A DNA stretch of 64,000 nucleotides from Lolium rigidum (Eukaryota > Streptophyta > Magnoliopsida > Poales > Poaceae), in the NCBI RefSeq assembly GCF_022539505.1, contig NC_061511.1, forward strand, positions 30,452,620 to 30,516,619, written 5' to 3'. Below the pieces are notes generated by a model. It saw only the letters and a program-made list of their open reading frames with translations, searched no databases and was not told the origin of the DNA. The position numbers and the translations under genes are program-made. Shown here one piece after another: positions 1-26,861 of this stretch. How positions within the stretch are numbered: the stretch's first letter is position 1; each line of letters begins with the position of its first letter.

Positions 1-2
1 TC

Positions 3-992
3 AGCAAGAAGTTAGATCCGCAGCTCAGGGGACAGATGATAGCCCTGTTGAAGGAATACCCGGATTGCTTCGCATGGGATTACACGAGAGATGCCTGGTT
101 TGGACGAGAGCATCATTGAGCATCGCCTCCCCCGAAGAAAGGATTTCGGCCGTTCCAACAACGAGCACGTCGGATGAGGGCCGAGATTCTGGAAGAAGTC
201 AAGAAGGAGATTGAGAAAATGTTGGCCGCCGGATTCATCAGGCCATGCAGGTATGCTGAGTGGATCTCCAGTATAGTTCCGGTGGAGAAGAAGGACGGCC
301 GATGGCGCGTGGCCATCGATTTCCGAGATCTTAACAGAGCTACCCCAAAGGACGAATATCCGATGCCCGTGGCGGAAACATTGATAAACGCCGCTGCTGG
401 CCACAAGGTGTTGAGCTTCATGGATGGCAACGCCGGTTATAATCAGATTTTCATGGCCCCGGAAGACATACACAAGACCGCATTCAGAGTACCAGGGGCA
501 GTAGGCTTGTTCGAGTACGTGGTCATGACCTTTGGTTTGAAGAATGCTGGTGCAACATACCAGCGAGCCATGAATTATATATTTCATGATCTGATCGGCA
601 AGTTGGTGGAGATCTATATCGACGACGTGGTGGTCAAATCGGTATCCATGGAGGGGCACTTGGACGATCTACGGCGCGTCCTAGAACGGACTCGGAAATT
701 CGGGCTGAGAATGAATCCGAAGAAGTGTGCTTTTGGCGTGACTGGCTGGTCAATTCTTAGGTTTTCTCGGTTCATGAACGGGGAATTGAGATCGGCCTCG
801 AAAAGTCAGGAGGCGGTGCGCACCATGCAGCCGCCGACCACGAAAAAGGAGCTTCAACGCCTCATCGGCAAGATCAATTTCGTCCGGCGGTTCATCTCTA
901 ATCTGTCAGGACGAATCGAGCCGTTCATGGCGCTGGTGAAGACCAAGTCTGACGACGAGTTTCACTGGGGCGTAACAGCAACGGGCGTTTGA
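3..992 (+). pseudogene. Tat-A pol: reverse transcriptase domain, frameshifted
   Basis: Frame 3 is open from 174 to 992 and shows RT blocks: WRVAIDFRDLNRAT, the hydrophobic core after GHKVLSFMDGN, FGLKNAGATYQRAMN, and the catalytic box YIDD at 615-626, whose two Asp bind metal. The connection region ends with KKELQRLIGKINFVRRFI. Upstream (3-173) the frame is broken by a stop at 117-119 and by local frame changes before the RFxPFQQRARR-type motif. The frame is lost again near 968-975, where RNase H sequence continues in frame 1. It would copy element RNA into cDNA; this copy cannot make full-length pol. No conventional start is expected, since pol is made as part of a polyprotein. Confidence 0.9.
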
Positions 993-1340
993 TGAAATTA
1001 AGCGATATCTAACAACGCCGCTCGTGCTAGTTCCGCCCCAAGAAGACAGGCCATTCTACATCTACCTGTCGCGAGCTGATACGTCCATCGCTTCGATGGT
1101 GGTGCAACTTTACGACGGCGTTGAAAGAGTCGTTTTCTACCTCAGCAGAAGGATGCCGGACGCGGAGACAAGATACCCCGAGGTCGAGAAACTTTGCCTC
1201 CGCTTATTCTTCACCTGCACCAAGCTCCATCACATCCTTCCGACGGCGGAGATCATCGTCATCTCGTAAATCAGACGTCGTCAAACACATGTTGTCGGCC
1301 TCCGTTTTGAAAGGCCGACTCGGTAAATGGATGCTTGCGC
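993..1340 (+). pseudogene. Tat-A pol: first (native gypsy) RNase H domain, decayed
   Basis: Frame 1 from about 975 to 1269 reads on from RT into a gypsy-type RNase H: PFYIYLSRADTSIASMVVQLYDGVERVVFYLSRRM, then DAETRYPEVEKLCL. The catalytic start is eroded, as in Tat elements where the native domain is degenerate. The frame breaks at the stop ending at 1269, and the tail (KSDVVKHML..., then KGRLGKWMLALS) continues in another frame to about 1340. The domain would degrade RNA in RNA-DNA hybrids during reverse transcription. Confidence 0.8.
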
Positions 1341-1885
1341 TGTCGAATTTGATCTCCGTACCAGCACTGCGAAGGCAGTTAAGGGCCAAGCGTTAGCCGA
1401 TCTCATCGCTGAACGGATCAGCACCAATATAGCAGCACTATCCATTCGTGCATGGGCTATGTTCTTCGATGGATCGGTTTGTGACGACGGTTGCGGCATC
1501 GGCATTCTGCTCGTATCGCCTCGGGGGAGAATACTCCTTCTCCATCGGATTATCTACCCCTTGCACCAACAACGTAGCGAATATGAGGCAATACGTAAAG
1601 GAATGGAATTGTTATTGGAAGCTGGAGCTGAAGTCTGTAGAGCTCTTCGGAGACTCAAAGTTGGTGATTAACCAGCTCACGGAGGAATATAATTGCGAAA
1701 GTGAATCGCTGTTCCCATATTGGGTGGAATGCCGTGAGTTGATGACACAGTTCCGGTACATCAACTTCAATTGGATCCCAAGGTCCCGGAATACCGATGC
1801 CAACAATCTCGCACAAATGGCGTCAGAGCTACATAGATATAGCCGACGGAGCGGAAGTTCGGATACAATTCCTGGAACGGAATGA
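1341..1885 (+). pseudogene. Tat-A pol: second (archaeal-like) RNase H domain, frameshifted
   Basis: A second RNase H follows the first. The block AWAMFFDGSVCDDGCGIG carries the first catalytic Asp; EYEAIRKGMELLLEAGAE carries the Glu; ELFGDSKLVINQL carries the second Asp; NTDANNLAQMAS has the last Asp. These blocks fall in two frames (1327-1671 and 1448-1885), so at least one indel lies between about 1530 and 1640. Possession of an extra archaeal-type RNase H (RVT_3-like) is a published hallmark of the plant Tat lineage and is the main reason for that assignment. Confidence 0.82.
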
Positions 1886-3143
1886 TTGGAGAGCCGAGAT
1901 CTTCGATTATTTGAAAGATTCGGCTCGGGGGCACCTAAACGGGTGAGATACAGAGCCATGAAGTATGTCCTTATAGGAGATGATATGTTCTACAGGACAT
2001 TAGAAGGGTTGCTACTCAAGTGCCTAGGACCGACTGAGTCCAATCGGCTCTTACATGAGGTGCATGAAGGCGCCTGTGGAACGCATCAGTCGGCTCATAA
2101 GATGAAGTGGTTGATCGAGCGATCGGGGTTTTATTGGCCCACTATGCTTGAAGATTGCTTCAATTATTACAGGGGTGCCAAGCATGTCGGATGTTTGGAA
2201 AATTCAGATGGTGCCAAGCATCGGCGATGAACCCCATCATCAAGCCTTGGCCGTTTCGGGGTGGGGCATGGATATGATCGGCAAAATCCATCCGGCATCG
2301 TGTAAAAAACATGAATGGATTTTGGTTATCACAGATTATTTCACCAAGTGGGTGGAGGCCGTCCCTATGAAAAAAGTAACATCGGAGGACGTGATCAAGT
2401 TTGTGAAAGAACACGTCATTCATAGGTTTGGAATTCCTCGGACTATCACGACCGATGGAGGTTCGGTCTTCACTTCTAAAGAATTCAGGAAGTTCCGTGA
2501 TGACGTAGGGATTAAACTGATCCGATCATCCCCATACTATGCTCAAGCTAACGGACAGGCCGAGGCGTCCAATCAAAGCCTGATCAAGCTGATCAAGAGG
2601 AAAATTGACGAGAACCCTCGGGATTGGCATGAGAAGCTATCAGAAGCGTTATGGGCCTACCGCATGTCGTGCCACGGAGCTATAAAGACCTCGCCGTACC
2701 AGCTTGTCTATGGACAGGAGGCCGTATTGCCTTGGGAAATTACGGCTGGATCAAGACGCGTCACGTTTCGGAATGATCCGACAACGGAAGAGTATGCAGC
2801 TTTGATGAGCGACACTATTGAGGACTCAACAGAACTCAAGCTTTGGTCGTTGGAGAAGATTAAGGAGAACAAAGCCAGGGTGGCTCGTGCCTACAACAAA
2901 AAGGTTAGGCCAAAGGAGTTCCAAGTTGGTGATCTTGTGTGGGAAGCTGTGTTGCCATTGGGAACCAGGGATAAGGCATATGGCAAATGGTCTCCTAATT
3001 GGCACGGCCCGTACAAAGTGGTCCAGGCCTTGAAGGGTAATGCGTACATGCTGGAGGAATTGAGCGGCGAAAAGTTCCCCGTGGCTGTTAATGGTCAACA
3101 CCTCAAGAAATATTTCCCAAGCATGTGGGATGATGGACAGTAA
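1886..3143 (+). pseudogene. Tat-A pol: integrase
   Basis: The zinc-binding N-terminus is seen as the HEVHEGACGTHQSAHKMK block, followed by FYWPTMLEDC and a C-x2-C pair near 2176-2187, where a frameshift occurs. The catalytic core is open in 2148-3143: D63 (ITDYFTKW), D103 (TTDGGSVF) and E139 (GQAEASNQ), giving DD35E spacing. The C-terminal part has GDLVWEAVLPLG and YGKWSPNWHGPYKVV, the GPF/Y-type module, and ends at TAA 3141-3143. It would insert element cDNA into the genome. No chromodomain is visible, as expected for Tat. Confidence 0.88.
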
Positions 3144-3556
3144 GATGTGGGGGCCGATTTCAGAATCGGCCAATAAAAAAAAAAACATATATACATCGGA
3201 GCCGATGCACAGGCATCGACTTGAGAAAACGTATGGAGATTAACAGTATGCAAGTACAGCCGATGCACGGGCATCGACTTCAGAAAACAGAGCCGATACG
3301 CTGATATCGACTTTAGCAAAATAAGTTTATACAACAGCTTGGCCTCGGACAGACAAGATGAGCCGATATTTTGCCATCGGCTCCTCGTACGACAACTCCA
3401 TTCGGCAATCGACAAGGGAGCGGAATTAGTTGAGGGATTTTCTTCATTGATAAGGGGATTTCTTACAAAGAAAGAGCCGATTGCTCGGGAAGGAGAACAA
3501 AAGAAGGGTCTATCGACCAATCTACTATTGCTAGGCCTATACTAGTAGATCTTAAT
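3144..3556 (+). repeat. Tat-A 3' noncoding tract with repeated GCCGAT units
   Basis: No ORF of note. The tract is built from short imperfect repeats that contain GCCGAT or ATCGGC, for example the unit around AGCCGATGCACAGGCATCGA at about 3201-3220, again near 3259 and 3290. Similar units occur in Tat-B at 15417-16000. Confidence 0.7.
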
Positions 3557-4038
3557 CTACGGGCCGTCGCTTCCTTCGTCGTCATCCTCGGAACTCTCAT
3601 CGGCACTACTGCCGATGGGTTCCTCGTCGCTGCTTCCGTAACCCTCTACGGGAGCTTCGTCTTCGTCTTCATCGTCGCTCGTCGTCGTCGTCCCACCACA
3701 TGCGGAGGCGCTCGCCGGCGGGTAACCCTCGAGGGAGTCGTCGTCGTCGTCATCGTCTTCCTCTTCCTCTTCTTCGGAGGTGGGGCAGCCGTCCCGGGGA
3801 ACCGGTCGTCCTCGCTCTCCGACTCCGGCCTCCCGACGGCGAGGAACTGAAGATCTTCGTCCCCGCTGGTCAGGGACTGGTCGTCTTCGGACCAGACAGA
3901 GGAGGCATGGTCTTCCAGGTCCCATGCTTCTGGGGCGCGGATGTCCGGTGGCGTCTCGCGAGAGGAGGAGGACCCGAAGGAAAGTTCGGAGGAGGAGTCG
4001 TGGAAGACCGACGAAGAGGAAGAAGAAGAGGAAGACAT
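3557..4038 (-). pseudogene. Antisense acidic accessory protein of Tat-A, frameshifted
   Basis: On the minus strand an ATG at 4038 opens a protein starting MSSSSSSSS, with LTSGDEDLQFL and SESEDD, which then loses frame near 3790. The following frame carries a long Glu/Asp run and EAPVEG before a stop at 3557. The intact counterpart in Tat-B (19606-20064) has the same order: Ser-rich start, LTDGEDDLQFL, a Glu/Asp run, EAPAEG, acidic tail. Maize Grande, another Tat element, is published to carry an antisense accessory gene here that encodes a nuclear protein. Function here is unknown; a nuclear acidic protein is inference. Confidence 0.7.
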
Positions 4039-4119
4039 GGCTGTGGGAGTTTGGGGGTTTTTTGGGTGCCGATGGCCAGAACAGAGCAAGATGGTGAAAT
4101 GGCGAACTGCTTAGGGCGG

Positions 4120-4127
4120 TTAAATAA
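4120..4127 (-). promoter_or_regulatory. Candidate TATA-like box for the antisense acidic gene
   Basis: TTATTTAA on the minus strand, 82 bp upstream of the ATG at 4038. The same octamer lies 81 bp upstream of the Tat-B counterpart (20145-20152). Confidence 0.45.
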
Positions 4128-4329
4128 AGGGGGCCACGGTGAAAAAATTCAATGCCACAGCAGTTTTCGAGGAGGCAGTACTCAAAGACAACGGTCAAAT
4201 TGTGCGGAGCAAAGGTTCTGCTCTGCCATGACATGACCCGACGAAAAATGCTGCAATGGTTCTGCTCTGCCATGACATGACCCGACGAAAGAAAAACGTA
4301 ATGATTTTGGAAATATTATTTCCAAAACC

Positions 4330-4340
4330 AGGGGGGCATG
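4330..4340 (+). promoter_or_regulatory. Polypurine tract of Tat-A
   Basis: AGGGGGGCATG directly precedes the LTR start TGTTATCACC. This is the expected plus-strand primer position, matching AGGGGGCATG before 20351. Confidence 0.7.
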
Positions 4341-5514
4341 TGTTATCACCAGAATTTGACCGAGTCAGAGGTGGGCCGCAATCAATATGGGTTTAAAGGA
4401 AGTATACATGGAGAATCATGTGAATCGGCCTTTTATACCAAGTTGGGCTTAATTGCCCGTGTATCTGTAACATATTAGATCGTATCTTAGTTTAGAGATA
4501 GAATCTTAGTCGTGCACGGTTTAGTGCACGCCCACATTAGAAAGTCCCCTGGACTATAAATATGTACCTAGGGTTTATGGAATAAACAACAACTCACGTT
4601 CAACCCCAAAAACAAACCAATCTCGGCGCATCGCCAACTCCTTCGTCTCGAGGGTTTCTATCGGGTAGCGACATGCTGCCTAGATCGCATCTTGCGATCT
4701 AGGCAGCACAAGCCCCACGTTGTTCATGCGTTGCTCGTATCGAAGCGCTTTTGATGGCGAGCAACGTAGTTATCATTAGATGTGTTAGGGTTAGCATTGT
4801 TCTTCGTTTAAGCATGCTTACGTAGTGCAACCCTTGCATATCTAGCCGTCCTCACGCCTATCTCAGGTGTGGGGCGGCACCCCGCTTGATCATTGTTTAG
4901 TAGATCTGATCCGTTACGATTGCTCCTTGTTCCGCAAGGATTAGGTTAATATCTGCAATAGTTTGGCCTTACAAAGGGGGAGGATCCTGTGGCACGTAGG
5001 GTGGCGTTCGCAAGTCCTAAACGGGATGTTCCTAGGATCAACTCCATGTTGGTTTTTTGGCCTCGTTTAGGATCGGCTTACGAGCACCGTGCGTGGCCAT
5101 CTGGCCCAACCTGGAGTAGGATGATCCGATTATGTGGTGAAAACCCTAAATCGTCGTAGATCTCATTAGCTTCATCTTGATCAAGCAGGACCACCAAGTA
5201 TCCGTGCACCCCGTACGGATCATGGGTGGATCGGCTCTTTGAGCCGATTCACGGGATAACCCGAGAGCCGATCGAGGCTCGTATTTAACGTTTACATGTA
5301 TGCCCTGCAGGAAACTAAGCGAGGCAACCTCATCACCTTCCTGACCAGGTATAGGTCAGGTGGCACGCCCTTGCACTTCGCAACGCCGCGTGTGACCAGA
5401 AGAGCATTGCGGGCCGTCGCTCGGAGGGGTCTCAGCCCGCCGCAGCTCTAGGCTCCCCCCGGCTCTACAGTGTTGACAAGGCCGCTGCCCGCCGGTGGGT
5501 TTTGGCAGTCAACA
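4341..5514 (+). repeat. 3' LTR of Tat-A (1174 bp)
   Basis: Starts TGTTATCACCAGAATTTGAC and ends GGCAGTCAACA (TG...CA). A TATA box TATAAATA lies at 4555-4562. The transcribed part holds three strong inverted repeats (4675-4707, 4729-4766, 4845-4878) that recur in the Tat-B LTRs. Clearly related to, but diverged from, the Tat-B LTRs, so it is a separate older insertion. Confidence 0.92.
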
Positions 5515-10670: not shown

Positions 10671-11568
10671 TAGACTTCGCTTGTCCCCAAGCGAAACTGA
10701 ACTCGGTAAACAGGACCACATGTTTATGGAGTGAAGAGTCGATAAATAAAATACGGACAAGAAGCATCATATTCATTCACACAAGACATTCTAGTAAACA
10801 ACTTCCTCATATAACTCAACTTGAAACAAGTATAAGGTAATCACAAATAAAGGTGCATAAGAAATCATAGTCGGTGATGGCAAACTTCGTTCTTGGTCAG
10901 AGAACAATTAACAGATTATACTTATCTCATTGAGCAGCATTCTCTTGTTAAAGTTTATATGGCACAACTTGCATACTCAATCATAATAGTCTCCTCATGA
11001 TCATTGATAACTTGCAAAGCTATATTCATTCAGATAAAACTTGTACATAAACAAGGAAAAATAAAAGACATGATGAAGCAAATCACAGTATAATGGTTTG
11101 ATCACAACTACTCAAATGCTTGCTTGAGATGGAGGGAAATAGGTTTACTGACTCAACATAAAGTAAAAGACAGGCCCTTCGCAGAGGGAAGCAGGGATTA
11201 AATCATGTGCTAGAGCTTTTTCAGTTTTGAAATCATATAAAGAGAATAAAAGTAACATTTTGAGAGGTGTTTGTTGTTGTCAACGACTGGTAGCGGGTAC
11301 TCTAACCCCCTTGCCAGACAAACCTTCAAAGAGCGGCTCCCATTTTATTTTTATTTTGTGTGGCACTCCTTCCAACCTTTCTTTCACAAACCATGGCTAA
11401 CCGAATCCTCGGGTGCCTGCCAACAATCTCATACCATGAAGGAGTGCCTTTTTATTTTAGTTTTATTATGATGACACTCCCCCAACCTTTGCTTACACAA
11501 GCCATGGCTAACCGAATCCTTCGGGTGCCGTCCATCAATCACATACCATGGAGGAGTGTCTATTTAGG
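10671..11568 (-). other. C1 internal noncoding segment 1
   Basis: AT-rich retroelement interior without a supported ORF. Bases up to about 10881 match C2 at 63539-63749. It ends with two tandem stem-loop repeats (11361-11561) and the Tat-B target site TTAGG (11564-11568). Confidence 0.7.
11361..11561. repeat. Two tandem stem-loop repeat units in C1 interior
   Basis: Units of about 90 bp (11361-11449 and 11472-11561) share CCATGGCTAACCGAATCCT and CATACCATG. Each is closed by an inverted repeat: GGCACTCCTTC (11362-11372) with GAAGGAGTGCC (11438-11448), and GACACTCC (11473-11480) with GGAGTGTC (11553-11560). The second stem position is a G-C pair in unit 1 and A-T in unit 2. Confidence 0.75.
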
Positions 11569-12732
11569 TGTTATCACCAGAATTTGACCGGATCAGAGGT
11601 GGGCCGCGATCAAGATTGGGCTTGAAGAATATACATGGAAGAAATACGTGAACCGGCCTTGTACACGAAGTTTGGGCAGTTTGCCCTTGTATCTGTAAAT
11701 ATATTAGGATACGTGTCGGTTAGTTAGAGCTTGGCTCGTGCACGATTGGGATTATTCCCACGTTAGAAAGTCTACGGACTATAAATATGTATCTAGGGTT
11801 ATCAAGAAAGACAACAATCACGTTCATCACAAACCAATCTTGGCGCATCGCCGACCCCTTGTTTCGAGGGTTTCTTCCGGGTAAGCATCATGCTGCCTAG
11901 ATCGCATCTTGCGATCTAGGCAGTATACGTTTATTCGTTATCCATGCGTTGCTCGTGCTGAAGCCTTTTTGATGGCGAGCAACGTAGTTATCATAGATGT
12001 GTTAGGGTTAGCATTGCTTTACCGTGCTACATGTTTTCGTCCATGCAACCCTTAGACGTCTAGCCGTCCTTACACCTTTCTTAGGTGTAAGGGCGGCACC
12101 TTGCTTGATCATTGTTTAGCAGATCCGATCCGTTATGATCGCTCCTTGATTCTTCAAGGATTAGTTTAATATCTGCATAGTTAGGCCTTACAAACGGGTT
12201 GAATGATCCAGTGTAGCACGTAGGGTGTAGTTTGCTAACCCTAGACAAGATGTTCCGGGGATCAACTTAATGTTGGTTTTTAGGCCTTGTCTAGGGTCGG
12301 TTTATTATCACCGTGCGTGGCTGCCAGGCTCAATCACGAGTAGGACGTTCCGATTATGCGGTGAAAACCCTAGATCGTCGTAGGTCGTTTTAGCTTTGTT
12401 TTGATCAAGCAGGACCACCATGCAATCGTAAACCCTATACGAGTCATGGGTGGATCGGCTCCTTGAGCCGATTCACGGGACAACCTGAGAGCCGATCGAG
12501 GCTCGTATTTAATGTTTACGTGTATGCCATGCAGAAACTAAGCGAAGCAAATCCATCACCTTCTCGATCGGGTATAGATCAGGTGGCACGCCCTTGCACC
12601 AGCATCGGGACATGCGTACCAGGAGCTTTGCGGGCCGTCGCTCGGAGGGACCAGGGCCAGCCGCAGCCCTAGGTTGTTCCCGGCTCTTCGTGTTGCCAGC
12701 CGTTGCTCGCCGTTGAGTTTCGGACGCCAACA
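11569..12732 (+). repeat. 5' LTR of Tat-B (1164 bp)
   Basis: TGTTATCACC to GGACGCCAACA. TATAAATA at 11780-11787. Inverted repeats: 11893-11906 with 11910-11923 (14 bp, 3-nt loop), 11947-11955 with 11976-11984, and 12063-12077 with 12083-12097. The primer site should follow directly (12735 on, TTTGGGCACGCCCGGTGGGA); I could not assign its tRNA. Confidence 0.95.
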
Positions 12733-12793
12733 CATTTGGGCACGCCCGGTGGGACAGTCTTCAACATCAACTGCATCGCCATCTACATCTGAG

Positions 12794-15453
12794 ATGGCGG
12801 AAGGTACTCCAGTCACGTACGAGGATCTGCCCGAGGAGCTCAAGAAGAAGTATGACGACGTCAAAGCTATCCTCGAAGCCGACCTCATCGGCTCTTTCCA
12901 CAGGACCCGCTCACACGGCATCAGGTGGAGAGGGTTCACACCTGAAGGCGCGCTCGATGGAGTGGACCTGTCCACCCCTTCAGAAGAACGCACCAGGTCC
13001 TTGCATCAGGAGATCAATTTCATGGTAGCTCATTCGCTACACCGCCATTCTGAGAGCCTGGTGAACACTTTGGAGCGTGTCGCCCTTCGGGCGCTCCATG
13101 AAATCTTGAGGCATCAGTACTCTCCCTCAGGACCTGCTCTAGGAACTCACCAAGGAGAGCTACCACTCCAGAGCCGCCCACCGCTGCCGTTCGCGCTGGC
13201 AGCACCAGAGGTGCCGAGTACACCGGCATTCGTCGTCTACAAGATCGGTGGCGATCCTAGCGACTACCAGTTCTTGTATGAGGCGCCTAAGGAGATCCCT
13301 CACGGATACACGTGCACATACGTGCCAGACAGCAGTAACTGGGCACTCACGAACCAGGCTGCAACAGCAGGGACTTCTGGAACAGCAGGAGGAACCTCTG
13401 GATCAGATCTTGAGAAGCAGACGTGGCTAGCTAAATACGCCACTCCGACGAACGTCCAGAGCTCAACTCCTGTAGCTAGCTCAGATCTTGAGAAGCAAGC
13501 GTGGCTAGCTAAATATGCCACGCCAGCGAATCTTCAGAGCTCCACTCCTGCAGCTAGCACCGCGGATCAGATCAGCACGATTTTGAGAGACCAGTTCGGC
13601 ATGGTGCCGAAAAGGAGGGCAATCGGCTATTCCAAGCCGTACCCCAACGACTACGATTTGATCCCACTACCACCCAAATATCGGCTCCCTGAATTCTCCA
13701 AGTTTAGTGGGTCAGATGGCTCCAGCTCTATCGAGCATGTAAGCCGATATTTGGCGCAGCTGGGCACGATCTCAGCTGCAGATGCACTACGCGTGAGGTT
13801 CTTCGCACAGTCCCTCACAGGATCGGCTTTTGGGTGGTACACTTCACTGCCACCAGACTCAATCCGAACTTGGAAGCAGTTGGAAGAACAGTTCCACATG
13901 CAGTATCACTCAGAGGCTTCCGAGGCTGGCATAGCCGATCTAGCCCAAGTACGTCAGAAGCGCGGAGAAACAGTGTCAGAATACATCCAGCGCTTCAGGG
14001 CCGTTAGGAACCGATGCTATTCGGCTCGTTTGACTGAAAAAGAAGCCGTCGAGTTGGTGGTGGTGGGTCTCGCATCACCGATCAAGGATATGGCTTCCCA
14101 AGCAGACTACCCATCACTGGCGCATATGGTTCAGAAACTGTCATTATATGAACAGCGCCACCCAGAGCTGTACCAGGACAAATTCAAGCGTGCAGTAGTC
14201 CTGGTTGAGACAGAGGAAGATGAAGGGTCTGCGGGAGATCAAGAAGTAGGAGTGGCTGAATGGACTCGGGGGGCAACCCCCGTGTCCTGCAAATGGGTTA
14301 AGCCACAAGGTCCGCCCAGAGGGTTTGATTTTGACGTAACTAAAGCTGAGCAAATTTTCGACCTCTTACTTAAGGAGAAGCGACTGAAGTTACCCGAAGG
14401 CCTCAAAATCCCCACGGTACAGAGCTGAACGGAAAGCCATACTGCAAATGGCATAACACGTTCTCCCATACCACCAACGACTGCAGGGTGTGGCGTCAGC
14501 AGATCCAAATGGCGATAGAATAAGGACGTCTAATTTTCAACCAATACGCCATGAAAGTCGACACACACCCCTTCCCCGCCGTTAACACGGTGGAGTACGC
14601 TTACCCCGAAGGGTGCCAGCCAGGTTTCTCGTTGAGCATTAATATGGTCGAGCCTGGGCACCACTCTGGTAAGGACAAAGGCGAGGGCAGCCGCTCTCGT
14701 AGCAAGGACAAAGAGGAAGCCGCTCCACGCGATCGGCTCCGGCACGATGGCAAACGCTACATCACAGAGGGAGAAGTAAAGAATGTGCGATATCAACGAC
14801 CTCTCTCTGACCATCTCCTCAACAAATATGTAAGTCAGTACGACCAGCGCCGGCGGTACAACAGCGACGATGAAAGGGATCATCTAGCTAGCAGTGACGC
14901 CAGGAGATATCGTCGGCATGATCGCAATGAGGAGAGATACGAGCGCCGTGCCAAGGAAAGGTCAAGAGAACAAGACGACGTGGACAAGCACTGGGACTGT
15001 CCTTTCTTCAAACACTGCTGGGATTCAGGAATGAGCCGATTGCCTACAATCGGCAACTGCCCAGAATGTAGACAAAAGAAGAAGGATGCAACAGACGTGT
15101 CAGTGTTCAAACGTCTAGGGCCTCTCCCATCTAGGAACAAGCAAACTGAGTCCTCTCGGGAAGAAGACCTCGAGGAGTTAGAAGATGACTACGAAGAAGA
15201 AGAGGACAGGTACCACCGGCCAAGGTGGTGCCCTGATGGACTCAGCCGTTCCCAAAAGCGTAGGGTTCAGCGACTGCGTGGCTTGGAGGAAGCCGAAAGG
15301 TTGTACCTGCACACGCTAAGGAAGGCGCGGCCTGATCTGGCCGCGAAAATTCAACGAACCCTGGACGAAGAGGGTCGACCACAAAAGATGGAGTGGCGCC
15401 CCAAACAAAGGAAAGCCGATGATGAGACATCGGCTGGCACCAGTGAGATGTAA
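12794..15453 (+). pseudogene. Tat-B gag polyprotein, one frameshift and one stop
   Basis: Gag forms the particle that packages element RNA. The first ATG after the LTR and primer region is 12794 (MAEGTPVTYEDLPEEL); an in-frame ATG inside the LTR is unlikely to be used. Residues about 204-253 hold a tandem repeat, SDLEKQxWLAKYATPxNxQS twice. Residues about 262-465 are a Retrotrans_gag domain (YRLPEFSKFSGSDG, ALRVRFFAQSLTGSAFGWY, SEYIQRFRAVRNRC). The frame ends at 14428; a one-base shift restores the C-x3-H...C block CKWHNTFSHTTNDC. TAA at 14521-14523 then interrupts before an open stretch (14551-15453) with Arg/Glu-rich sequence and a Cys cluster (WDCPFFKHCW ... CPECRQKK). No protease motif is seen. 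Confidence 0.88.
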
Positions 15454-16046
15454 ACCTCTTTTGAGCAATGCAATCAAGATGGGGGCCGATTCCAGCAATC
15501 GGCCCATATTATCCTTGCCATACGTTTTGCCTGTGTTCAGCGTCGATCTAACAGGTGACGGAAAGCTAGGGTATGGGTTTACATCGGCTTGTGAGCTCGA
15601 GGAAATTGGCATTGGTCATGTTTGCAGAGCCGATGTTCAGGTATAGTACTTTGGATAAACTGCAGAGCCGATATCTGCAGTAACCTGACAGATTCGGCTC
15701 GGGGGGCACATAATCAGATAGACAGATGCTATGAACATGTGCGATACATGGGCAATAAAACATGGGCAATAAAATATTAGGGACCGATAGGAAAATCGGC
15801 CAGTAAAAAAAATGTATATACAAGTACAGCCGATGCAAAGACATCGACTTCAGAAGGTAAAGAGCCTAAAACATGGGCAATAAAATATTAGGGGCCGATA
15901 GGAAAATCGGCCAGTAAAAAAAAATGTATATACAAGTACAGCCGATGCAAAGACATCGACTTCAGAAGGTAAAGAGCCGATGCACAGTCATCGACTCTAG
16001 AGGTACAAGTTCAGCAAAACATTTGACAGTTTTATACAGAAAGGCT
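15454..16046 (+). repeat. Tat-B noncoding tract with GCCGAT units and a 111-bp tandem duplication
   Basis: No coding sequence. About 13 copies of GCCGAT/ATCGGC occur between 15417 and 15985, many as inverted pairs. A unit of about 111 bp starting ACATGGGCAATAAAATATTA is duplicated head to tail (15760-15870, 15871-15981) with only a few differences. It lies between the converging gag and PMD genes, where both 3' ends would fall. Confidence 0.8.
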
Positions 16047-19000
16047 CTACTGAAGAAACGCGCTGAGGGCGTGAAGGGCGTCAGCACGGATACGATCCAC
16101 CTCGGCGATCTCAGCCTCGTCGTCCTCGTCTTTGCCCGTCACCAGCTGACTGCTCAGGGTACGAATTTCAGCCAGATCGGTCTTCAGATCGGCTGTGAGG
16201 CCCTTTGCTTCCTCTTGAGAGCGGGCAATAAGGGCTTCCTTGTCTTGGATAAGCTGCTTGGTCACCCTGACCCTCTCTTCAAGGTTCTCCAGTTCCTTAC
16301 GCAGGGTCTCGAGTTCGGCACTATTGGCAGAAGTGTCAGTTTTGGCGTCTAAAGCAGCCTTCTTCTCGTTGAGCCGTTGACACTTGTCTGCAATATCGGC
16401 TCTCAATGGAAGCTGGGTGTGGCGAAGATTAATCCTTTGACGAGCCGACTGCACCCTTGACTTGAAGACCGACAGAGTCACAGCTGGCCAAAGCTTCACC
16501 TGCAGTGTCACAGGGAGATGGGGCTGGATATCTTCGAGGATGCCCTTGACTTCCTCGGGATTTTCAACCAGGGTCTCAATTGAGGAAGAGAGCAAATCCT
16601 TGAGACGCTGGAGTGGACCATGGACCATGCTAGGACTGGGCTCTTCACTCGCCTTGGAAGTAGCTGGTTCGAGGGATTCAGGATCGAACGTCAGCAAGCT
16701 TGAGAGATCACAACCCTGACAAGACGAACAAAAGTGGTATTAGTATACAACGAAGAAAGTGATAGAGCCAAGGAAGTGGAGTGTACCTCTCCCAAGGTAG
16801 GAGGAGCAGCCGATGTTGTGATAATCGGCTTTTCCGTGGACTTGGCTAGGTTAGCCACTTGGTCAGCCACGATCGTCGAGGTGGCTAGGTCTAGCGTGGC
16901 GGACGGCATCAGTACCTCCTCGACGTCTCCGCTAGAGGTATCATTGATCTGCAAAAGGAAGTAATTAGCCGATCCAAGTGGCAATGGGTTAGCATGAAAT
17001 ATAAACCAGGGAGATGATTACATTTGAGACCTCCTGGCTTGATGGAGAAGCTCGTGGGTCTTTGCGAGCCCTTTTGACGCATCGACGCTTCACGCGTGAC
17101 CCTGATTTGATCGGGGCTTGGGGAGCAGGAGGCTCGGGAGTCAATCTTTTCTTAGAAGCCGGCGCTGGCGAGGCCGTCTGGCTCTGTGTGGTGGACCTCT
17201 CGGAGTTGCCCGAGCTCGAATCCCTCTGGCTGGACTCATCGTCCCCGCTGGAGTTCTCTTCGGTGGAACTCTGTAGAAAGAAGTACAAGCATGTTGCAAA
17301 AGACTGGGAAGGCAGATAAATGTGGTCAAGGCACAAGTCAACTTACGTGCAAGCTTTCTTGGGCAGGAGCTTTGCGCTTCAGGGTCTTTCTGGCAGCCAC
17401 TTTCCTCACTGCCTTCCTCGCCTGAGTTGAGGCTCGGGGGCAACCGGCCCCGAAGATGCTTTACTCTTGGGAGCCGATTTCGGTGAAATCGGCTGACTCT
17501 GCATTATGACTTTCTTCAGGGGTGGCGAGCTCTGGCAGAAGAGAACCACTGGGGCTGGAGGAAGGAATTCGAAGGGGGAGCCATCGGCTTGCGTGGGCTC
17601 TGGGCCATCTTGTTGCTGCCAGGAGATGGAGTCAGGTTACAAACAATTACCATGAGCCATTGCAAGAAATTTATAAGTAATGGTACCTGGTCTGCAGGAA
17701 CGTCGTACTCGGCATCAAGTTGTCTCAGCAACGGTCCTAGAGCTCTTCTGAAGGCATGGGTCTTCCACATGGACCACCAAGTCTCGAAACCATCGGTAGT
17801 GGAGGTGAAACGGAGGTTGTGAGGAATTGGAACGGCCAGGGCATCAAAGAAGGTATAGCACCTTTGGCCAGTGAGGATGTCAGGCAGTTCAGCTCTGCTT
17901 GCTGTCAGGTGGTGTAGGAAGAAGTGTGGAGGCACCTGCCCGAGACCAAGCTGTCGGGCTACTACTACCGGTTGGTAAGACTCGTAACCAGGCTTGATGA
18001 TCCGGTTTGAGGTACTCATGCCAACTGGAAGAAAGCAAGGACGAATCATGATAGAGTACAAATGCCGGGTGCTAGCGTCATCGGCAAAGTTATCCAATCG
18101 GAAGGAGACTGGGTTCTCAAAGTTCTCCGATTCAGTATAAGGAAAGAACAGGGGTTGTCCAAGCCTTGGAAGAAAATCTTGAACCACCCTCGTCTGCTTC
18201 CTTAGGGATCGGCCTCGCTGCCCGGGAGACCATACAAAGCTTGGCCATAGCTGGTGCATCGGATCTCCTTTCCATTAGCATCTGGGAAGGTGCAGGTGGC
18301 CAAAGATGGGAAGTCTGGGATCTGGTTCTGAAAGTACAGTTGAGCCCATAACTGAATAAACCACCAGGGGCCTCCAGTTTTAACTGTCTTTTGAGAGAAC
18401 AGTTTGACAGACATCAGTTGAAGAGATCGATAGACCTCTCCAAGAAACAGTTTGCCAAGGCCAAGTTGGGTGCCTTTGGCAAGTTCATAGGCCAGGGAAA
18501 GGTAATTCTTGGTTGGGGCGAGTGATGGGCCACAGAATATGAAGTGCTCCAACCAGAAGTTCAGGAAGGCTGTGTGTTCTCTCTCTGTCATAGGGCCTTT
18601 GGTTTTCATATAACGATTAAGGTAGGCACCCCAGCTGGTACACTCTTTTTTAGAGGAAAGGGTGAAAGGAACTTTCGGCAGTTTAAATGCAGAGGGGCTT
18701 GGGGATGCAATGTCTAGGCCTGTGATCATGGCCACATCCAGCAGAGTTGGTGTCATAGGGCCATGGCCAAACATGAAGCAGTTCAGTGCATCAGACCAGA
18801 AGTAGCCGATGGTTTTCAGAATATTTTCATTCTTTTCAAGGGGAGACAATGATAATGACAAGGCATCGGCTATCCCTATGGCTTCCCAGGTGGCATAGTG
18901 GGTTTTGGACATTCTATTGTGCCATGCCACCCAACCTTCAGGAGGATTAGGCCAGGCTCGCAGGCAGTCGGCCCAGGAAGACAGATCTAAGTTCCGGTTC

Positions 19001-19251
19001 ACGAAGGGGATTCTGTTAGCCTCGCATGAAATTAAGAGAGCGGGACTCTCGGAAGAACGGGGACCGAGGCACATAGAATTTGCAAGAGAAGGATGTGGCA
19101 GCAGGATGTCTGAAACCTAAAATTAATAACGGAACAGAACATTAATTCAGGTGTTTGCTATTAATCCTAACGTTGATTCGAATGGCGAGAGGCGGTTAAG
19201 GATTACCTTCAGACCGGAGACCATGGCGTTGGTATTGGATGATTCCGCCAT
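16047..19251 (-). pseudogene. Antisense plant-mobile-domain (PMD, aminotransferase-like) gene, six exons, two 1-bp frame breaks
   Basis: Exons on the minus strand: 19251-19207, 19116-17687, 17615-17347, 17270-17022, 16948-16787, 16715-16047. All five introns (71-90 nt) have GT...AG ends and phase 0. Exons 1, 4, 5 and 6 are exact multiples of three; exons 2 and 3 are one base short, matching frame breaks seen near 18215-18225 and 17420. Exon 2 encodes a PMD (PF10536-like) region: WVAWHNRM, IGIADALSLS, GYFWSDALNCFMFGHGPMTP, TLLDVAMITGLD, TSWGAYLNRYM, GGPWWFIQLWAQLYF. Exons 3-4 add basic, NLS-like segments and a Ser/acid stretch; exon 6 has a heptad-rich coiled coil. Host PMD proteins (MAIN, MAIL1) act in transposon silencing and genome stability. 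The role here is unknown; capture of a host gene is inference. Confidence 0.82.
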
Positions 19252-19605
19252 TAGATGCGCTGTGGAGTTGGGGCGGCGCGGTCGAGATCTGAGATGCGGG
19301 TGGCCGTGAGTTGGAACTGCTCGGGCGGCGATTTGGGGATCTGAGTTTACTTTCTCAGACGGAGGTCGCAGGTTACCGTTTGGAGGGGCAACTGGGTTGG
19401 CCTTGCTCGCGTTTTATGGTAGAGGCCGATGCGATGCCATCAGCTCTTTTTTGGGGGGTTGTTTGACTTTGACTATCGGCAAAAAAAATTGATTGGGAAC
19501 ACTTATTCATTAATAAAAGGGGATTCTTACAATGAAGAGCCGATTGCTCAAGAAAGGAGGAACAAAAGAAGAGCCGATTGCTCAGGAACTACTAATCCTA
19601 CACTA

Positions 19606-20064
19606 CTAATCCTCGCTGGCTTCGTCGTCGGCATCGTAGCTGCCGTCGGCGCTTCTTCCGGAGAGTCCCTCGGCCGGAGCTTCTTCCTCCTCGTCATCAT
19701 CATCGTCCTCGCTGTCCGCCCAAGCGCGGAAGCGCTTCGCCAGCGGATACCCGATGGAGGAAGAGGAGTCATCCTCCTCCTCTTCTTCCTGTTCCTTCTC
19801 TTCTTCCTCTTCTTCTTCTTCCTCCGCCTTGTCGGAAGAGGTGGGGTTTGCCCAGGAGTGGAGGTCGTCCTCGCTCTTGCTCTCCAGCTCCCCTTCGACG
19901 AGGAACTGGAGGTCGTCCTCCCCATCGGTTAGGGGCAGGTCACCATCTGACCCGACGAGGGCCTCGGGTGGGCCATCTGGCACAAAGTCGAAGTCCCACT
20001 CCTGCTCACTCGAGGAAGAAGATTGGAAAGAAAGGCCTGATGAGACGGAGGAAGAGGAAGACAT
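19606..20064 (-). CDS. Antisense acidic accessory protein of Tat-B (152 aa)
   Basis: Intact ORF from ATG 20064 to a stop at 19606. It starts MSSSSSVSSGLSF, then has LTDGEDDLQFLVEGELESK, a long Glu run, a short basic patch (LAKRFRAW), Asp/Glu runs and EAPAEG. The extreme acidity suggests a nuclear or chromatin-binding role, but no fold is recognised. It lies between the 3' LTR and the PMD gene, transcribed the same way as PMD, with its own TATA-like box. The Tat-A copy at 3557-4038 is broken. Position and orientation match the antisense gene published for maize Grande; I cannot show homology from memory. The Glu-coding run could be mistaken for a simple repeat, but the non-repetitive flanks are shared by both elements. 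Confidence 0.72.
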   Translation of the reverse strand: MSSSSSVSSGLSFQSSSSSEQEWDFDFVPDGPPEALVGSDGDLPLTDGEDDLQFLVEGELESKSEDDLHSWANPTSSDKAEEEEEEEEEKEQEEEEEDDSSSSIGYPLAKRFRAWADSEDDDDDEEEEAPAEGLSGRSADGSYDADDEASED

Positions 20065-20144
20065 TGCTACAGGGAAAGAGGGTTTTTTTGGTGCCGATAG
20101 CTAGAACAGAGGAGGGGGATGAAGAGGCGAATCGTTCGGCACGG

Positions 20145-20152
20145 TTAAATAA
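20145..20152 (-). promoter_or_regulatory. Candidate TATA-like box for the antisense acidic gene (Tat-B)
   Basis: TTATTTAA on the minus strand, 81 bp upstream of the ATG at 20064. Same motif and spacing as in Tat-A. Confidence 0.45.
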
Positions 20153-20340
20153 GGGGGAGCATAGTGGAAATTTAATGCCATTACAGTTTCCGAGGAAGTG
20201 ATGCTAAAGCTATCAAATCTTGCAGAGAAGTTGAGAAGGCAAGGCATCATGATGAAGAATACTGCGACGGTTCTGCTCTGCCACGACATGACCCGACGAA
20301 GAAAAAGCAGAGTGATTTTGGAATTATCAATTCCAAAACC

Positions 20341-20350
20341 AGGGGGCATG
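20341..20350 (+). promoter_or_regulatory. Polypurine tract of Tat-B
   Basis: AGGGGGCATG directly before the 3' LTR. Confidence 0.7.
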
Positions 20351-21515
20351 TGTTATCACCAGAATTTGACCGGATCAGAGGTGGGCCGCGATCAAGATTG
20401 GGCTTGAAGAATATACATGGAAGAAATACGTGAACCGGCCTTGTACACAAAGTTTGGGCAGTTTGCCCTTGTATATGTAAATATATTAGGATACGTGTCG
20501 GTTAGTTAGAGCTTGGCTCGTGCACGGTTGGGATTATTCCCACGTTAGAAAGTCTACGGACTATAAATATGCATCTAGGGTTATCAAGAAAGACAACAAT
20601 CACGTTCATCACAAACCAATCTTGGCGCATCGCCGACCCCTTATTTCGAGGGTTTCTTCCGGGTAAGCATCATGCTGCCTAGATCGCATCTTGCGATCTA
20701 GGCGATATACGTTTATTCGTTATCCATGCGTTGCTCGTGCTTGAAGCCTTTTTGATGGCGAGCAACGTAGTTATCATAGATGTGTTAGGGTTAGCATTGC
20801 TTTACCGTGCTACATGTTTTCGTCCATGCAACCCTTAGACGTCTAGCCGTCCTTGCACCTTTCTTAGGTGTAAGGGCGGCACCTTGCTTGATCATTGTTT
20901 AGCAGATCCGATCCGTTATGATCGCTCCTTGATTCTTCAAGGATTAGTTTAATATCCGCATAGTTAGGCCTTACAAACGGGTTGAATGATCCAGTAGCAC
21001 GTAGGGTGTAGTTTGCTAACCCTAGACAAGATGTTCCGGGGATCAACTTAATGTTGGTTTTTAGACCTTGTCTAGGGTCGGTTTATTATCACCGTGCGTG
21101 GCTGCCAGGCTCAATCACGAGTAGGACGTTCCGATTATGCGGTGAAAACCCTAGATCGTCGTAGGTCGTTTTAGCTTTGTTTTTGATCAAGCAGGACCAC
21201 CATGCAATCGTAAACCCTGTACGAGTCATGGGTGGATCGGCTCCTTGAGCCGATTCACGGGACAACCTGAGAGCCGATCGAGGCTCGTATTTAATGTTTA
21301 CGTGTATGCCATGCAGGAAACTAAGCGAAGCAAATCCATCACCTTCCCGATCGGGTATAGATCGGGTGGCACGCCCTTGCACCAGCATCGGGACGTGCGT
21401 ACCAGGAGCTTTGCGGGCCGTCGCTCGGAGGGACCAGGGCCAGCCGCAGCCCTAGGTTGTTCCCGGCTCTTCGTGTTGCCAGCCGTTGCTCGCCGGTGAG
21501 TTTCGGACGCCAACA
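20351..21515 (+). repeat. 3' LTR of Tat-B (1165 bp)
   Basis: TGTTATCACC to GGACGCCAACA; TATAAATA at 20562-20569. The first hairpin (20677-20703) has lost its two outermost pairs compared with the 5' LTR. TTAGG follows. Confidence 0.95.
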
Positions 21516-21520
21516 TTAGG

Positions 21521-21771: not shown

Positions 21772-23346
21772 TGATACGTCTCCGACGTATCGATAATTTC
21801 TTATGTTCCATGCCACATTATTGATGATATCTACATGTTATATGCACATTTTATGTCATATTTATGCATTTTCCGGAACTAACCTATTGACGAGATGCCG
21901 AAAGGCCAGTTGCTGTTTTCTGCTGTTTTTGGTTTCAGAAATCCTAGTAAAGAAATATTCTCGGAATCGGACGAAATCAACGCCGAAGATCTTATAATCC
22001 CCGGAAGCATCTAGAACACACGAGAAGGACCAGAGGGGGGGCACTGGGCCCCCAGACCATAGGCCGGTGCGGCCCAGGCCCTGGCCGCGCCGCCCTATAG
22101 TGTCGTCGCCCCTTCGACCTTCTGACGCCGCCTCTTCGCCTATATAAAGCCCCTCGACCTAAAACCTCGATACAGAAAAGCCACGGTACGAGAAACCTTC
22201 CAGAGCCGCCGCCATCGCGAAGCCAAGATCTAGGGGACATGAGTCTCTGTTCCGGCACGCCGCCGGGATGGGGAAGTGCCCCCGGAAGGCTCCTCCATCG
22301 ACACCACCGCCATCTCCATCAACGCTGCTTGTCTCCCATGAGGAGGGAGTAGTTCTCCATCGAGGCTCGGGGCTGTACCGGTAGCTATGTGGTTCATCTC
22401 TCTCCTATGTACTTCAATACAATAATCTCATGAGCTGCCTTACATGATTGAGATTCATATGATGATGCTTGTAATCTAGATGTCATTATGCTAGTCAAGT
22501 GGGTTTTACTTATGTGATCTCCGGAGACTCCTTGTCCCACGTGTGTAAAGGTGATAGTGTGTGCACCGTGTGGGTCTCTTAGGCTATATTTCACAGAATA
22601 CTTATTCACCGTGAATGGCATAGTGAAGTGCTTATTTATATCTCATTATGATTGCAATGTGTTTGTATCACAATTTATCTATGTGCTACTCTAGTGATGT
22701 TATTAAAGTAGTTCTATGCCTCCTTTCTTAGCATGAAGGTGACAGTGTGCATGCTACGTTAGTACTTGGTTTAGTCGTGTTGATCTTTTATGCACTCTAA
22801 GGTTATTTAAATATGAACATTGAATTGTGGAGCTTGTTAACTCCAGCATTGAGGGTTCGTGTAATCCTACGCAATGGTGTTCATCATCCAACAAGAGTGT
22901 AGAGTATGCATTTATCTATTCTCGTTATGTGATCAAAGTTGAGAGTGTCCACTAGTGAAAGTCTAATCCCTAGGCCTTGTTCCTAAATATCGCTATCGCT
23001 GCTTGTTTACTTGTTTTACTACGTTACTACTCGCTGCGTTACTATCGCTTCTTTACTCGTCCTGGGCAAAGCACTTTTCTGGTGCCGTTGCTACTACTTA
23101 TTCATACCACCTGTATTTCACTATCTCTTCGCCGAACTAGTGCACCTATTAGGTGTGTTGGGGACACAAGAGACTTCTTGCTTTGTGGTTGCAGGGTTGC
23201 ATGAGAGGGATATCTTTGACCTCTTCCTCCCTGAGTTCGATAAACCTTGGGTGGTCCACTTAAGGGAAACTTGCTGTTGTTCTACAAACCTCTGCTCTTG
23301 GAGGCCCAACACTGTCTACAGGAAAAGGAGGGGGGCGTAGGCATCA
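21772..23346 (+). repeat. 5' LTR of B1-1 (1575 bp)
   Basis: TGATACGTCTCCGACGTATC to GGGGGGCGTAGGCATCA. The first 20 bases contain the palindrome GATACGTCTCCGACGTATC (one mismatch at its centre). TATATAAAG at 22141-22149 with a GC-rich leader. Confidence 0.95.
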
Positions 23347-23356
23347 AGCTATTTTC

Positions 23357-23373
23357 TGGCGCCGTTGCCGGGG
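23357..23373 (+). promoter_or_regulatory. Primer binding site of B1-1, tRNA-Asp type
   Basis: TGGCGCCGTTGCCGGGG is the exact complement of the 3' end of plant tRNA-Asp(GUC) including CCA. It begins 10 nt after the LTR. Confidence 0.85.
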
Positions 23374-23510
23374 AGGAAAGGTAAAAGGTACTCACATTCC
23401 GGACCTCGGCTACTAAGCTATTTTCCGGCGCCGTTGTAAGTACTCGAAGCTATTTCCTTTAGATCCTACAATTGCAACTTTTTGTTTCTTGTTTACACTA
23501 GTTAGGCATA

Positions 23511-24272
23511 ATGGAAAACAACAAAAATATGAGAGATCTTTATGAACTCTATCTTGAATTAGGACATGATGTGTTTGAAGAGAGAATTAAAAAACCCATG
23601 GAACTTTATATGCATGCTAATGGGAATGTTGTTAATATAAATGCTTTGAACACTATTGTTGCGAATGCTATGGAAAATTCTAAGCGTGGGGAAGCTGGTT
23701 TTGATGAGCATGATCTTTTTAGTCCCCCAAGCATTGAGGAGAAAATTTACTTTGATGATACTTTGCCTCCTATTTATGATGATTATAATGATAGTAGTCT
23801 TTTGTTGCCACCTGTTATGGAGGATAAATTTGATTATGAATACAATATGCCTCCTATATTTGATGATGAGAATAATGATGATAGCTACTCTGTTGAATTT
23901 GCTCCCACTACAACTAATAAAATTGACTATGCTTATGTGGAGAGTAATAATTTTATGCACGAGACTCATGATAAGAATGCTTTATGTGATAGTTATATTG
24001 TTGAGTTTGCTCATGTTGCTACTGAAAGTTATTATGAGAGAGGAAAATATGGTTGTAGAAATTTTCATGTTACTAAAATGCCTCTCTATGTGCTGAATTT
24101 TTTGAAGCTACACTTGTTTTATCTTCCTATGCTTGTCGCTTTGCTCTTCATGAACTTGTTTATTTACAAGATTTCTTTTCATAGAAAGCATGTTAGGCTT
24201 AAATGTGTTTTGAATTTGCCTCTTGATGCTCTCTTTTGCTTCAACTACTATTTCTTGCGAGTGCATCATTAA
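23511..24272 (+). CDS. Unknown acidic protein with hydrophobic C-terminal segment (253 aa), B1-1
   Basis: Open from ATG 23511, the first ATG in the frame, 137 bp after the primer site. It starts MENNKNMRDLYELYLELGHD. Residues about 60-170 are rich in Asp, Asn and Tyr with a repeated pattern (IYFDDTLPPIYDDYND; YEYNMPPIFDDENND). Residues about 190-215 are strongly hydrophobic (FLKLHLFYLPMLVALLFMN) and may span a membrane; a basic patch (HRKHVRLKC) follows. There is no zinc knuckle or gag signature. B1-2 carries the same ORF (55909-56667) at about 90% identity with an in-frame one-codon gap and no stops. I do not recognise a family; an env-like or gag-replacing role is speculation. Confidence 0.65.
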   Translation: MENNKNMRDLYELYLELGHDVFEERIKKPMELYMHANGNVVNINALNTIVANAMENSKRGEAGFDEHDLFSPPSIEEKIYFDDTLPPIYDDYNDSSLLLPPVMEDKFDYEYNMPPIFDDENNDDSYSVEFAPTTTNKIDYAYVESNNFMHETHDKNALCDSYIVEFAHVATESYYERGKYGCRNFHVTKMPLYVLNFLKLHLFYLPMLVALLFMNLFIYKISFHRKHVRLKCVLNLPLDALFCFNYYFLRVHH

Positions 24273-26845
24273 AACTGCTGAGCCCATCTTAATGGCTATA
24301 AAGAAAGAACTTCTTGGGAGATAACCCATGTGTTTTTTTTTACTACAGTACTTTGTTTTATATTTGAGTCTTGGAAGTTGTTTACTACTGTAGCAACCTC
24401 TCCTTATCTTAGTTTTGTTGCATTGTTGTGCCAAGTAAAGTCTTTGATAGCAAGGTTGATACTAGATTTGGATTGCTGCGCAGAAACAGATTTCTTGCTG
24501 TCACGAATTTCGACCTGCCTCTCTGTAGGTAGCTCAGAAAAATATGCCAATTTACGTGCGTGATCCTCAGATATGTATGCAACTTTCATTCAATTTGAGC
24601 ATTTTCATTTGAGCAAGTCTGGTGCCCTTTTAAAATTCGTCTTTACGGACTGTTCTGTTTTGACAGATTCTGCCTTTTATTTCGCATTGCCTCTTTTGCT
24701 GTGTTGGATGGATTTCTTTGTTCCATTACCTTCCAGTAGCTTTGGGCAATGTCCAGAAGTGTTAAGAATGATTGTGTCACCTCTGAACATGTGAGTTTTT
24801 GATTATGCACTAACCCTCTAAAGAGTTTGTTTTGAGTTTGGTGTGGAGGAAGTTTTCAAGGGTCAAGAGAGGAGGATGATATACTATGATCAAGAAGAGT
24901 GAAAGCTCTAAGCTTGGGGATGCCCCGGTGGTTCACCCCTGCATATTTCAAGAAGACTCAAGCGTCTAAGCTTGGGGATGCCCAAGGCATCCCCTTCTTC
25001 ATCGACAACATTATCAGGTTCCTCCCTTGAAACTATATTTTTATTCGGTCACATCTTATGTACTTTACTTGGAGCGTCTGTTTGCTTTTGTTTTTATTTA
25101 TGTTTGAATAAGTTCATCCTTGTGTGGGAGAGAGACACGCTCCGCTGTTGCGTATGAACACATGTGTTCTTAGCTTTACTCTTAATGTTCATGGCGAAGG
25201 TTGAAACTGCTTCGTTAATTGTTATATGGTTGGAAACGGGAAATGCTACATGTAGTAATTGGTAAAATGTCTTGGATAATGTGATACTTGGCAATTGTTG
25301 TGCTCATGTTTAAGCTCTTGCATCATATACTTTGCACCTATTAATGAAGAAATACATAGAGCTTGCTAAAATTTGGTTTGCATATTTGGTCTCTCTAAAG
25401 TCTAGATAATTTCTAGTATTGAGTTTTGAACAACAAGGAAGACGGTGTAGAGTCTTATAATGTTTACAATATGTCTTTTATGTAAGTTTTGCTGCACCAG
25501 TTCATCCTTGTGTTTGTTTCAAATAACCTTGCTAGCCTAAACCTTGTATCGAGAGGGATTACTTCTCATGCATCCAAAATCCTTAAGCCAACCACTATGC
25601 CATTTGTGTCCACCATACCTACCTACTACATGGTATTTCTCCGCCATTCCAAAGTAAATTGCTTGAGTGCTACCTTTAAATTTCCATCATTCGCCTTTGC
25701 AATATATAGCTCATGGGACAAAATAGCCTTAAAAACTATTGTGGTATTGAATATGTACTTATGCACTTTATCTCTTATTAAGTTGCTTGTTGTGCGATAA
25801 CCATGTTTTCTGGGGACGCCATCAACTCTTTGTTGAATATCATGTGAGTTGCTATGCATGTTCGTCTTGTACGAAGTAAGGGCGGTTTTCACAATCAAAT
25901 GGTTTGAGTATGCATACTGTTAGAGAAGAACATTGGGCCGCTAACTAAAGCCATGAATCATGGTGGAAGTTTCAGTTTGGACATAAAACCTCAATCTCTT
26001 ATGAGAATATTAACTGTTGTTGAATGCTTAAGCATTAAAAGAGGAGTCCATTACCTGTTGTCTATGTTGTCCCGGTATGGGTGTCTAAGTTGAAGAATGA
26101 TCAAAAGCGAGAAATCCAATGCGAACTTTCTCCTTAGACCCTTGTACGGGCGGCATAGAGGTACCCCTTTGTGACACTTGGTTGAAACATATGTTATGCA
26201 ATGATGATCGGTGTTAACCCAAGCTAATTAGGACAAGGTGCGAGCACTATTAGTACACTATGCATGAGGCTTGCAACTTGTAAGATATAATTTACATGAT
26301 ACATATGCTTTATTACTACCGTTGACAAAATTGTTTCATGTTTTCAAAATAAAAGCTCTAGCACAAATATAGCAATCGATGCTTTCCTCTTTGAAGGACC
26401 ATTCTTTTACCTTTTATGTTGAGTCAGTTCACCTATCTCTCTCCACCTCAAGAAGCAAACACTTGTGTGAACTGTGCATTGATTCCTACATATTTGCATA
26501 TTGCACTTATTATATTACTCTATGTTGACAATATCCATGAGATATACATGTTATAAGTTGAAAGCAACCGCTGAAACTTAAATCTTCCATTGTGTTGCTT
26601 CAATGCCTTTACTTTGAATTATTGCTTTATGAGTTAACTCTTATGCAAGACTTATTGATGCTTGTCTTGAAGTACTATTCATGAAAAGTCTTTGCCTTAT
26701 GATTCATTTGTTTACTCATGTCATTACCATTGTTTTGATCGCTGCATTCATTACATGTGTTTACAATAGTATGATCAAAGTTATGATGGCATGTCACTCC
26801 AGAAATTATCTTTGTTATCGTTTTACCTGCTCGGGATGAGCAGAA
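24273..26845 (+). other. B1-1 long 3' noncoding interior
   Basis: About 2.6 kb without a supported gene; short frames only. It contains GGGAGATAACCCATG near 24320 and two internal copies of the purine-tract motif CTAAGCTTGGGGATGCC (24908-24924, 24966-24982). The second forms a 9-bp stem-loop (24974-24994). Confidence 0.8.
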
Positions 26846-26861
26846 CTAAGCTTGGGGATGC
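26846..26861 (+). promoter_or_regulatory. Polypurine tract of B1-1
   Basis: CTAAGCTTGGGGATGC abuts the 3' LTR; third copy of this motif in the element. Confidence 0.75.

Follow-up and report, generated by a model that had tools for sequence, protein, structure and literature searches.

An antisense plant mobile domain gene with conserved introns, under selection in long terminal repeat retrotransposons of Lolium rigidum

We analyzed a 64,000-nucleotide stretch of the 2.44-Gb Lolium rigidum genome (NC_061511.1:30452620-30516619; hereafter the window, within which all positions are given) that carries a long terminal repeat (LTR) retrotransposon at 11569-21515. On the minus strand of this element, opposite to its sense genes, lies a gene for a plant mobile domain (PMD) protein. 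We find that this antisense gene is real, under selection, and of a published kind, and that its five introns are conserved at every junction across three other genomic copies (L034, L035, and L036). We judge the prospects to be about even for the whole of our explanation, in which a modular Ty3/gypsy family has inherited the gene as an antisense accessory, its product acts in the manner of the anti-silencing protein VANC21, and sister elements supply the enzymes.

Exon-intron structure and selection on the PMD protein

The gene is read on the minus strand as exon 1 (19207-19251, 45 nt), exon 2 with the plant mobile domain (17687-19116), the basic exon 3 (17347-17615), the basic, Ser/Thr-rich exon 4 (17022-17270), exon 5 (16787-16948), and exon 6 with the stop codon (16047-16715), which is DUF1409-related and possibly coiled-coil. 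The introns between them (19117-19206, 17616-17686, 17271-17346, 16949-17021, and 16716-16786) measure 90, 71, 76, 73, and 71 nt; all are phase 0 with GT...AG ends, and direct reading of the junctions agrees with the preliminary description of this DNA. Exons 1, 4, 5, and 6 each have a length divisible by three. That description also held exons 2 and 3 to be one base short each: both are indeed frame-broken in the window copy, but its exon 2 is longer than in L034, L035, and L036. These breaks may reflect decay or assembly indels.

The predicted PMD identity was borne out by PF10536, which matched the intact part of exon 2 (18205-19116) at E 2.4e-23 and 83.3 bits, over its curated cut-off of 34.9. 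The window copy spans profile positions 1-194 of 347 ahead of its break, and its relative P0001 spans 1-346. Exon 6 matches DUF1409 weakly (E 0.19); this domain is listed for Lolium and Oryza relatives, and exon 6 matches the C-termini of several among 20 Oryza proteins compared. The Oryza proteins carry the PMD, many together with DUF1409, and the alignment to P0264 reached 27% over 98% of the query. Homology is lost at the exon-2 borders in several of 26 aligned homologous proteins. The closest named proteins come from Lolium multiflorum, where gene models start with MAESSN, make the same exon 1-exon 2 join, and end at FLQ or shortly beyond; some skip exons. One public L. multiflorum model (P0198, QYE76_017487) runs a gag-like region and the PMD protein together and is probably a mis-joined prediction.

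Other copies of the element hold the gene at the same place. Using 304 aa of exon 2 as the query, we scored 130 of 4,000 first-look candidates, a ranking by score that favors intact copies; those besides the window's own were 91-97% identical, and 19 of the 130 carried an in-frame stop. An exon 6 search (150 scored of 5,258 candidates) allowed 35 same-strand pairs to be formed, the window included, in 32 of which exon 2 to exon 6 spans 3,051-3,080 bp (the remaining three span 3,242, 9,735, and 15,810 bp). None of the 35 paired copies was intron-less, for which about 2.69 kb would be expected, in keeping with the earlier proposal that antisense introns survive retrotransposition. The introns were presumably kept because, lying on the strand opposite the genomic RNA, they are left unspliced before reverse transcription. 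Within L034-L036, every one of the 15 introns has GT-AG ends and 17 of 18 exon lengths are divisible by three; the outlier, exon 5 of L035, also holds the sole frame break of that copy. All six exons are open in L034 and L036.

To describe selection we compared L034-L036 in three pairs. The ratio of non-silent to silent rates (dN/dS) was 0.13, 0.12, and 0.06 for exon 2 and 0.21, 0.21, and 0.18 for exon 6, and the whole-gene value for L034 against L036 was 0.17 (0.12-0.23). For exons 1 and 4-6 of the window copy the ratio was 0.49 (0.25-0.92) against L034 and 0.23 (0.14-0.34) against L036. In every pair computed dN/dS was below 1, which supports purifying selection. Intron divergence (0.197, 0.205, and 0.086) was several times higher than the exon 2 non-silent rate (0.031, 0.034, and 0.008) and stood at 0.6-0.8 of the silent rate (0.239, 0.282, and 0.147), and third codon positions held 67 of 101, 76 of 114, and 45 of 53 exon-2 differences. 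Because dN/dS is far below 1, third positions are in excess, and introns diverge several-fold more than non-silent sites, we conclude that selection acts on the protein.

These results bear on two alternative explanations. That open frames and splice-like sites were read by chance into repeat DNA might be suggested by a window copy broken in two exons, and we reject this reading as scarcely credible given the conserved junctions and dN/dS, along with the PF10536 match, the 130 scored copies, the L. multiflorum joins, and the third-position excess. Alternatively, the antisense transcript rather than its protein could matter, pairing with sense RNA so that small RNAs regulate the element; such a transcript role has been proposed for antisense open reading frames (ORFs) generally in a passage of PMC7264820. 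The signs of selection on the protein (dN/dS, third positions, and intron divergence) make this very improbable as the explanation, and both roles could coexist.

The element, its second antisense gene, and its relatives

The window element is flanked by a 5-bp target site duplication (TSD), TTAGG (11564-11568 and 21516-21520). Its LTRs of about 1.16 kb (11569-12732 and 20351-21515, plus strand) are 98.28% identical, with 15 mismatches and 4 gap openings; at a substitution rate of 1.3e-8 this identity would place the insertion at about 0.5 million years ago. The 5' LTR is followed on the plus strand by a putative primer-site stretch (12733-12755), near-identical among the five elements compared, by gag (12794-14428; Retrotrans_gag E 1.9e-16, dN/dS 0.20 against L032), and by a second sense ORF, gag2 (14524-15453; dN/dS 0.13 against L032), for which the Pfam scan gave no significant family. 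The non-coding stretch at 15454-16046 separates gag2 from the PMD gene, and a purine-rich tract (20341-20350, plus strand) precedes the 3' LTR. No pol domain was found in the eight ORFs of the element scanned with Pfam, so the earlier description of it as pol-less holds; nor did these eight ORFs match TRP28 (PF04195), the antisense protein in 97% of published Retand clusters, at E up to 1. With LTRs, a TSD, transposition-type ends, and no reverse transcriptase (RT) or integrase, it is a non-autonomous LTR retrotransposon, and its antisense coding gene sits between the sense genes and the 3' LTR, as do the antisense additional ORFs of plant Ty3/gypsy elements.

A second antisense gene lies in tandem 5' of the PMD gene in many copies. 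In the window (19606-20064, minus strand) it encodes a very acidic, serine-rich protein of 152 aa, for which the Pfam scan returned no family. We scored 150 of its 19,732 first-look candidates in the genome and found a listed PMD gene downstream on the same strand in 27 of these 150 loci, and none on the opposite strand within 12 kb. The gap from the acidic gene to exon 2 was 473-492 bp in 11 of 11 cases, and the distance to the end of exon 6 was 3,992-4,051 bp in 23 of 25. With an E threshold of 0.001 the acidic ORF found 77 homologues, and its dN/dS of 0.13 was computed on 139 low-complexity codons. By first-look candidates the acidic gene outnumbers the PMD gene (at least 19,732 against at least 4,000). 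A TATA-like box upstream of it (20143-20152, minus strand), seen in an alignment of four elements, is a candidate antisense promoter; TTATTTAAC occurs upstream of the acidic start in three of these four, and the fourth has one extra T.

The family appears modular. We scored 40 loci in the region of gag2 and exon 6 from 13,495 candidates. Eight of them, including the window, pass directly from gag2 to the end of the PMD gene, 17 hold an extra piece between the two (764-779 bp in 14 of these), and 15 have no gag2 match. Both copies of the extra piece that were read of these 14 (L039 and L040) contain a DTGAAVN stretch, which we take to be retropepsin-like; the window copy has no such piece. One of the 15 loci without a gag2 match (L041) retains the tail of the extra piece in otherwise unmatched DNA. 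Two carriers have no gag match. The element of L036 (7.36 kb, LTRs 99.06% alike, TSD CAAGC) has 760 bp from its 5' LTR to exon 6, and both of its antisense genes are open. That of L030 (TSD ACGGT) has no acidic match, and its PMD gene is badly broken and contains an insert; given the 8 mismatches and 9 gap openings between its LTRs, post-insertion decay or assembly indels can account for these breaks. The element of L034 has a shortened gag (L042) and was read except for about 330 bp separating L042 from L034. Thus PMD carriers without RT or integrase, where their 5' side was read, comprise the window element, L036, L030 (from LTR to gene), and L034 except for those 330 bp. Conversely, L032 has gag, gag2, and acidic matches and no PMD match.

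An enzyme-bearing sister lies 6 kb left of the window element. This sister (1..5514, plus strand, starting left of the window; TSD GAGGA, LTRs 98.8% alike) has ORFs for RT (9.3e-28), RNase H (5.2e-18), and integrase (2.3e-15), a shortened gag, and an antisense acidic gene match, and no PMD match was found in it. The Tat affiliation given in the preliminary description is left as a suggestion, its lead being a weak RVT_3 match of this sister (E 0.015, 15.7 bits) below the cut-off of 21.6. In all five elements compared, the LTRs begin with TGTTATCACC, and the purine tract and the near-identical stretch past the 5' LTR recur. An integrase search (118 scored of 47,448 candidates) turned up, besides the window's neighbor, a single case within 12 kb of a listed PMD gene, opposite to the gene and upstream of it. 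This integrase lies 3,025 bp from L035 exon 6, and the two may belong to a single pol-bearing element or to two adjacent ones.

Elsewhere in the window, a unit of about 5 kb is repeated several times (21772-28435, 46725-48115, and 54289-60710; families D1-D8), and a short C-rich tandem array of CTCTCGCAAACACGCGC-like units occupies 32452-32721.

Origin and candidate function of the PMD protein

The preliminary description regarded the gene as captured from the host. Recent uptake of a host gene with introns by the window element would account for the introns, and host PMD genes exist. We built a tree of 26 rows comprising element PMDs, five unnamed relatives, nine Oryza proteins, and eight other PMD loci of the genome, which we presume to be host loci and several of which are near-copies of one another. 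These eight loci fell on one side of a 100/100 branch (length 1.76), and the element PMDs, the five relatives, and the nine Oryza proteins on the other; the Oryza proteins that group with the element PMD are of the PMD-DUF1409 type, and PMD-A clades are assigned to Gypsy elements in the portion of PMC5418596 seen. This topology makes a recent capture appear unlikely, indeed more so than a purely transcript-based role.

What the protein does is approached through its predicted fold, for which VANC21 (PDB 9lnj), a DNA-binding anti-silencing protein, was the sole structural match found; a VANC fold is a candidate reading of this alignment. No DUF1985 (VANC) sequence match appeared in P0001, P0250, or P0257 at E up to 10, in a search where HMMER filters drop weak matches. 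In addition, the heptamer AGCCGAT/ATCGGCT occurs 34 times in 11569-21515 and is conserved between diverged copies; it is densest in the non-coding stretch at 15454-16046 (6 sites, 10.1 per kb). The suggestion that the gene counters silencing thus gains leads from the fold and the recurring motif, short of proof. Of the suggested help in packaging we saw no sign, though no test was aimed at it. Sections of PMC8616336 call plant mobile domain function unknown and already suggest an anti-silencing role, which is our leading guess.

We postulate that the PMD gene would be driven by its own promoter inside the element, and that its introns would survive since the reverse-transcribed genomic RNA is the opposite strand, where the splice signals go unread. 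RT and integrase could be supplied in trans by sisters sharing LTR ends and purine tract. The PMD protein would enter the nucleus, bind element DNA at the candidate site AGCCGAT, and, like VANC21, relieve silencing of family members or activate them, also in trans. A broader proposal is that retrotransposon PMDs are VANC-like sequence-specific anti-silencing factors and that labor is divided in the family, with pol elements giving copying enzymes, elements with only antisense genes open giving the anti-silencing protein, and an AGCCGAT code shared across members. We regard it as tentative and rather unlikely to hold in full. The main competitor is an ordinary inherited antisense gene with another role (nuclear entry, transcription control, or RNA/particle assembly), AGCCGAT serving a host factor or another element protein. 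Many such elements carry antisense ORFs without assigned function, and a Grande product is nuclear, as stated in part of PMC7264820, and AGCCGAT is also present in elements without a PMD, but the only structural match found is to a DNA-binding anti-silencing protein; we consider this competitor quite plausible, if short of an even chance.

The plant mobile domain is common to many retrotransposon copies and the silencing proteins MAIN and MAIL1. If the broader proposal is true, these host proteins share a domain with a transposon anti-silencing fold. Elements in which selected antisense genes are the only open ones would also suggest the non-autonomous element as a supplier, not only a parasite. 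A predicted fold match to a solved anti-silencing protein, together with a strongly conserved candidate site, makes PMD function testable.

Comparison with known systems

The Gypsy PMD-A proteins (PF10536; Ikeda et al. 2017, PMC5418596, in the part seen) likewise place a PMD gene in a Gypsy-type element, and according to extracts of PMC9289625 the PMD ranks first in frequency among extra domains of Gypsy consensuses, while extracts of PMC6317226 put it in 57% of Ogre elements. Here, by comparison, carriers lack RT and integrase where read, the copies share five conserved introns, and we measured selection. The aORF-3R genes (Grande gene23, RIRE2, and Retand) also lie antisense between sense genes and 3' LTR, and non-autonomous carriers are reported for Retand (available text of PMC7264820 and PMC11963269); our family differs in having PMD-DUF1409 rather than TRP28, five introns, some carriers without a sense gene, and a tandem second antisense gene. 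VANC21 of VANDAL21, as described in passages of PMC5735166, is similarly an element-encoded accessory protein paired with a recurring short motif, but it belongs to a DNA transposon, its motif is YAGTATTAY rather than AGCCGAT, and we found no sequence similarity. Finally, RLG_Cereba and RLG_Quinta (PMC11302176, in the sections seen) are autonomous and non-autonomous partners that share ends, the non-autonomous one contributing GAG, whereas here some carriers hold only antisense genes. The conserved intron structure, the antisense-only carriers, the VANC21-like predicted fold, and the conserved heptamer go beyond this literature.
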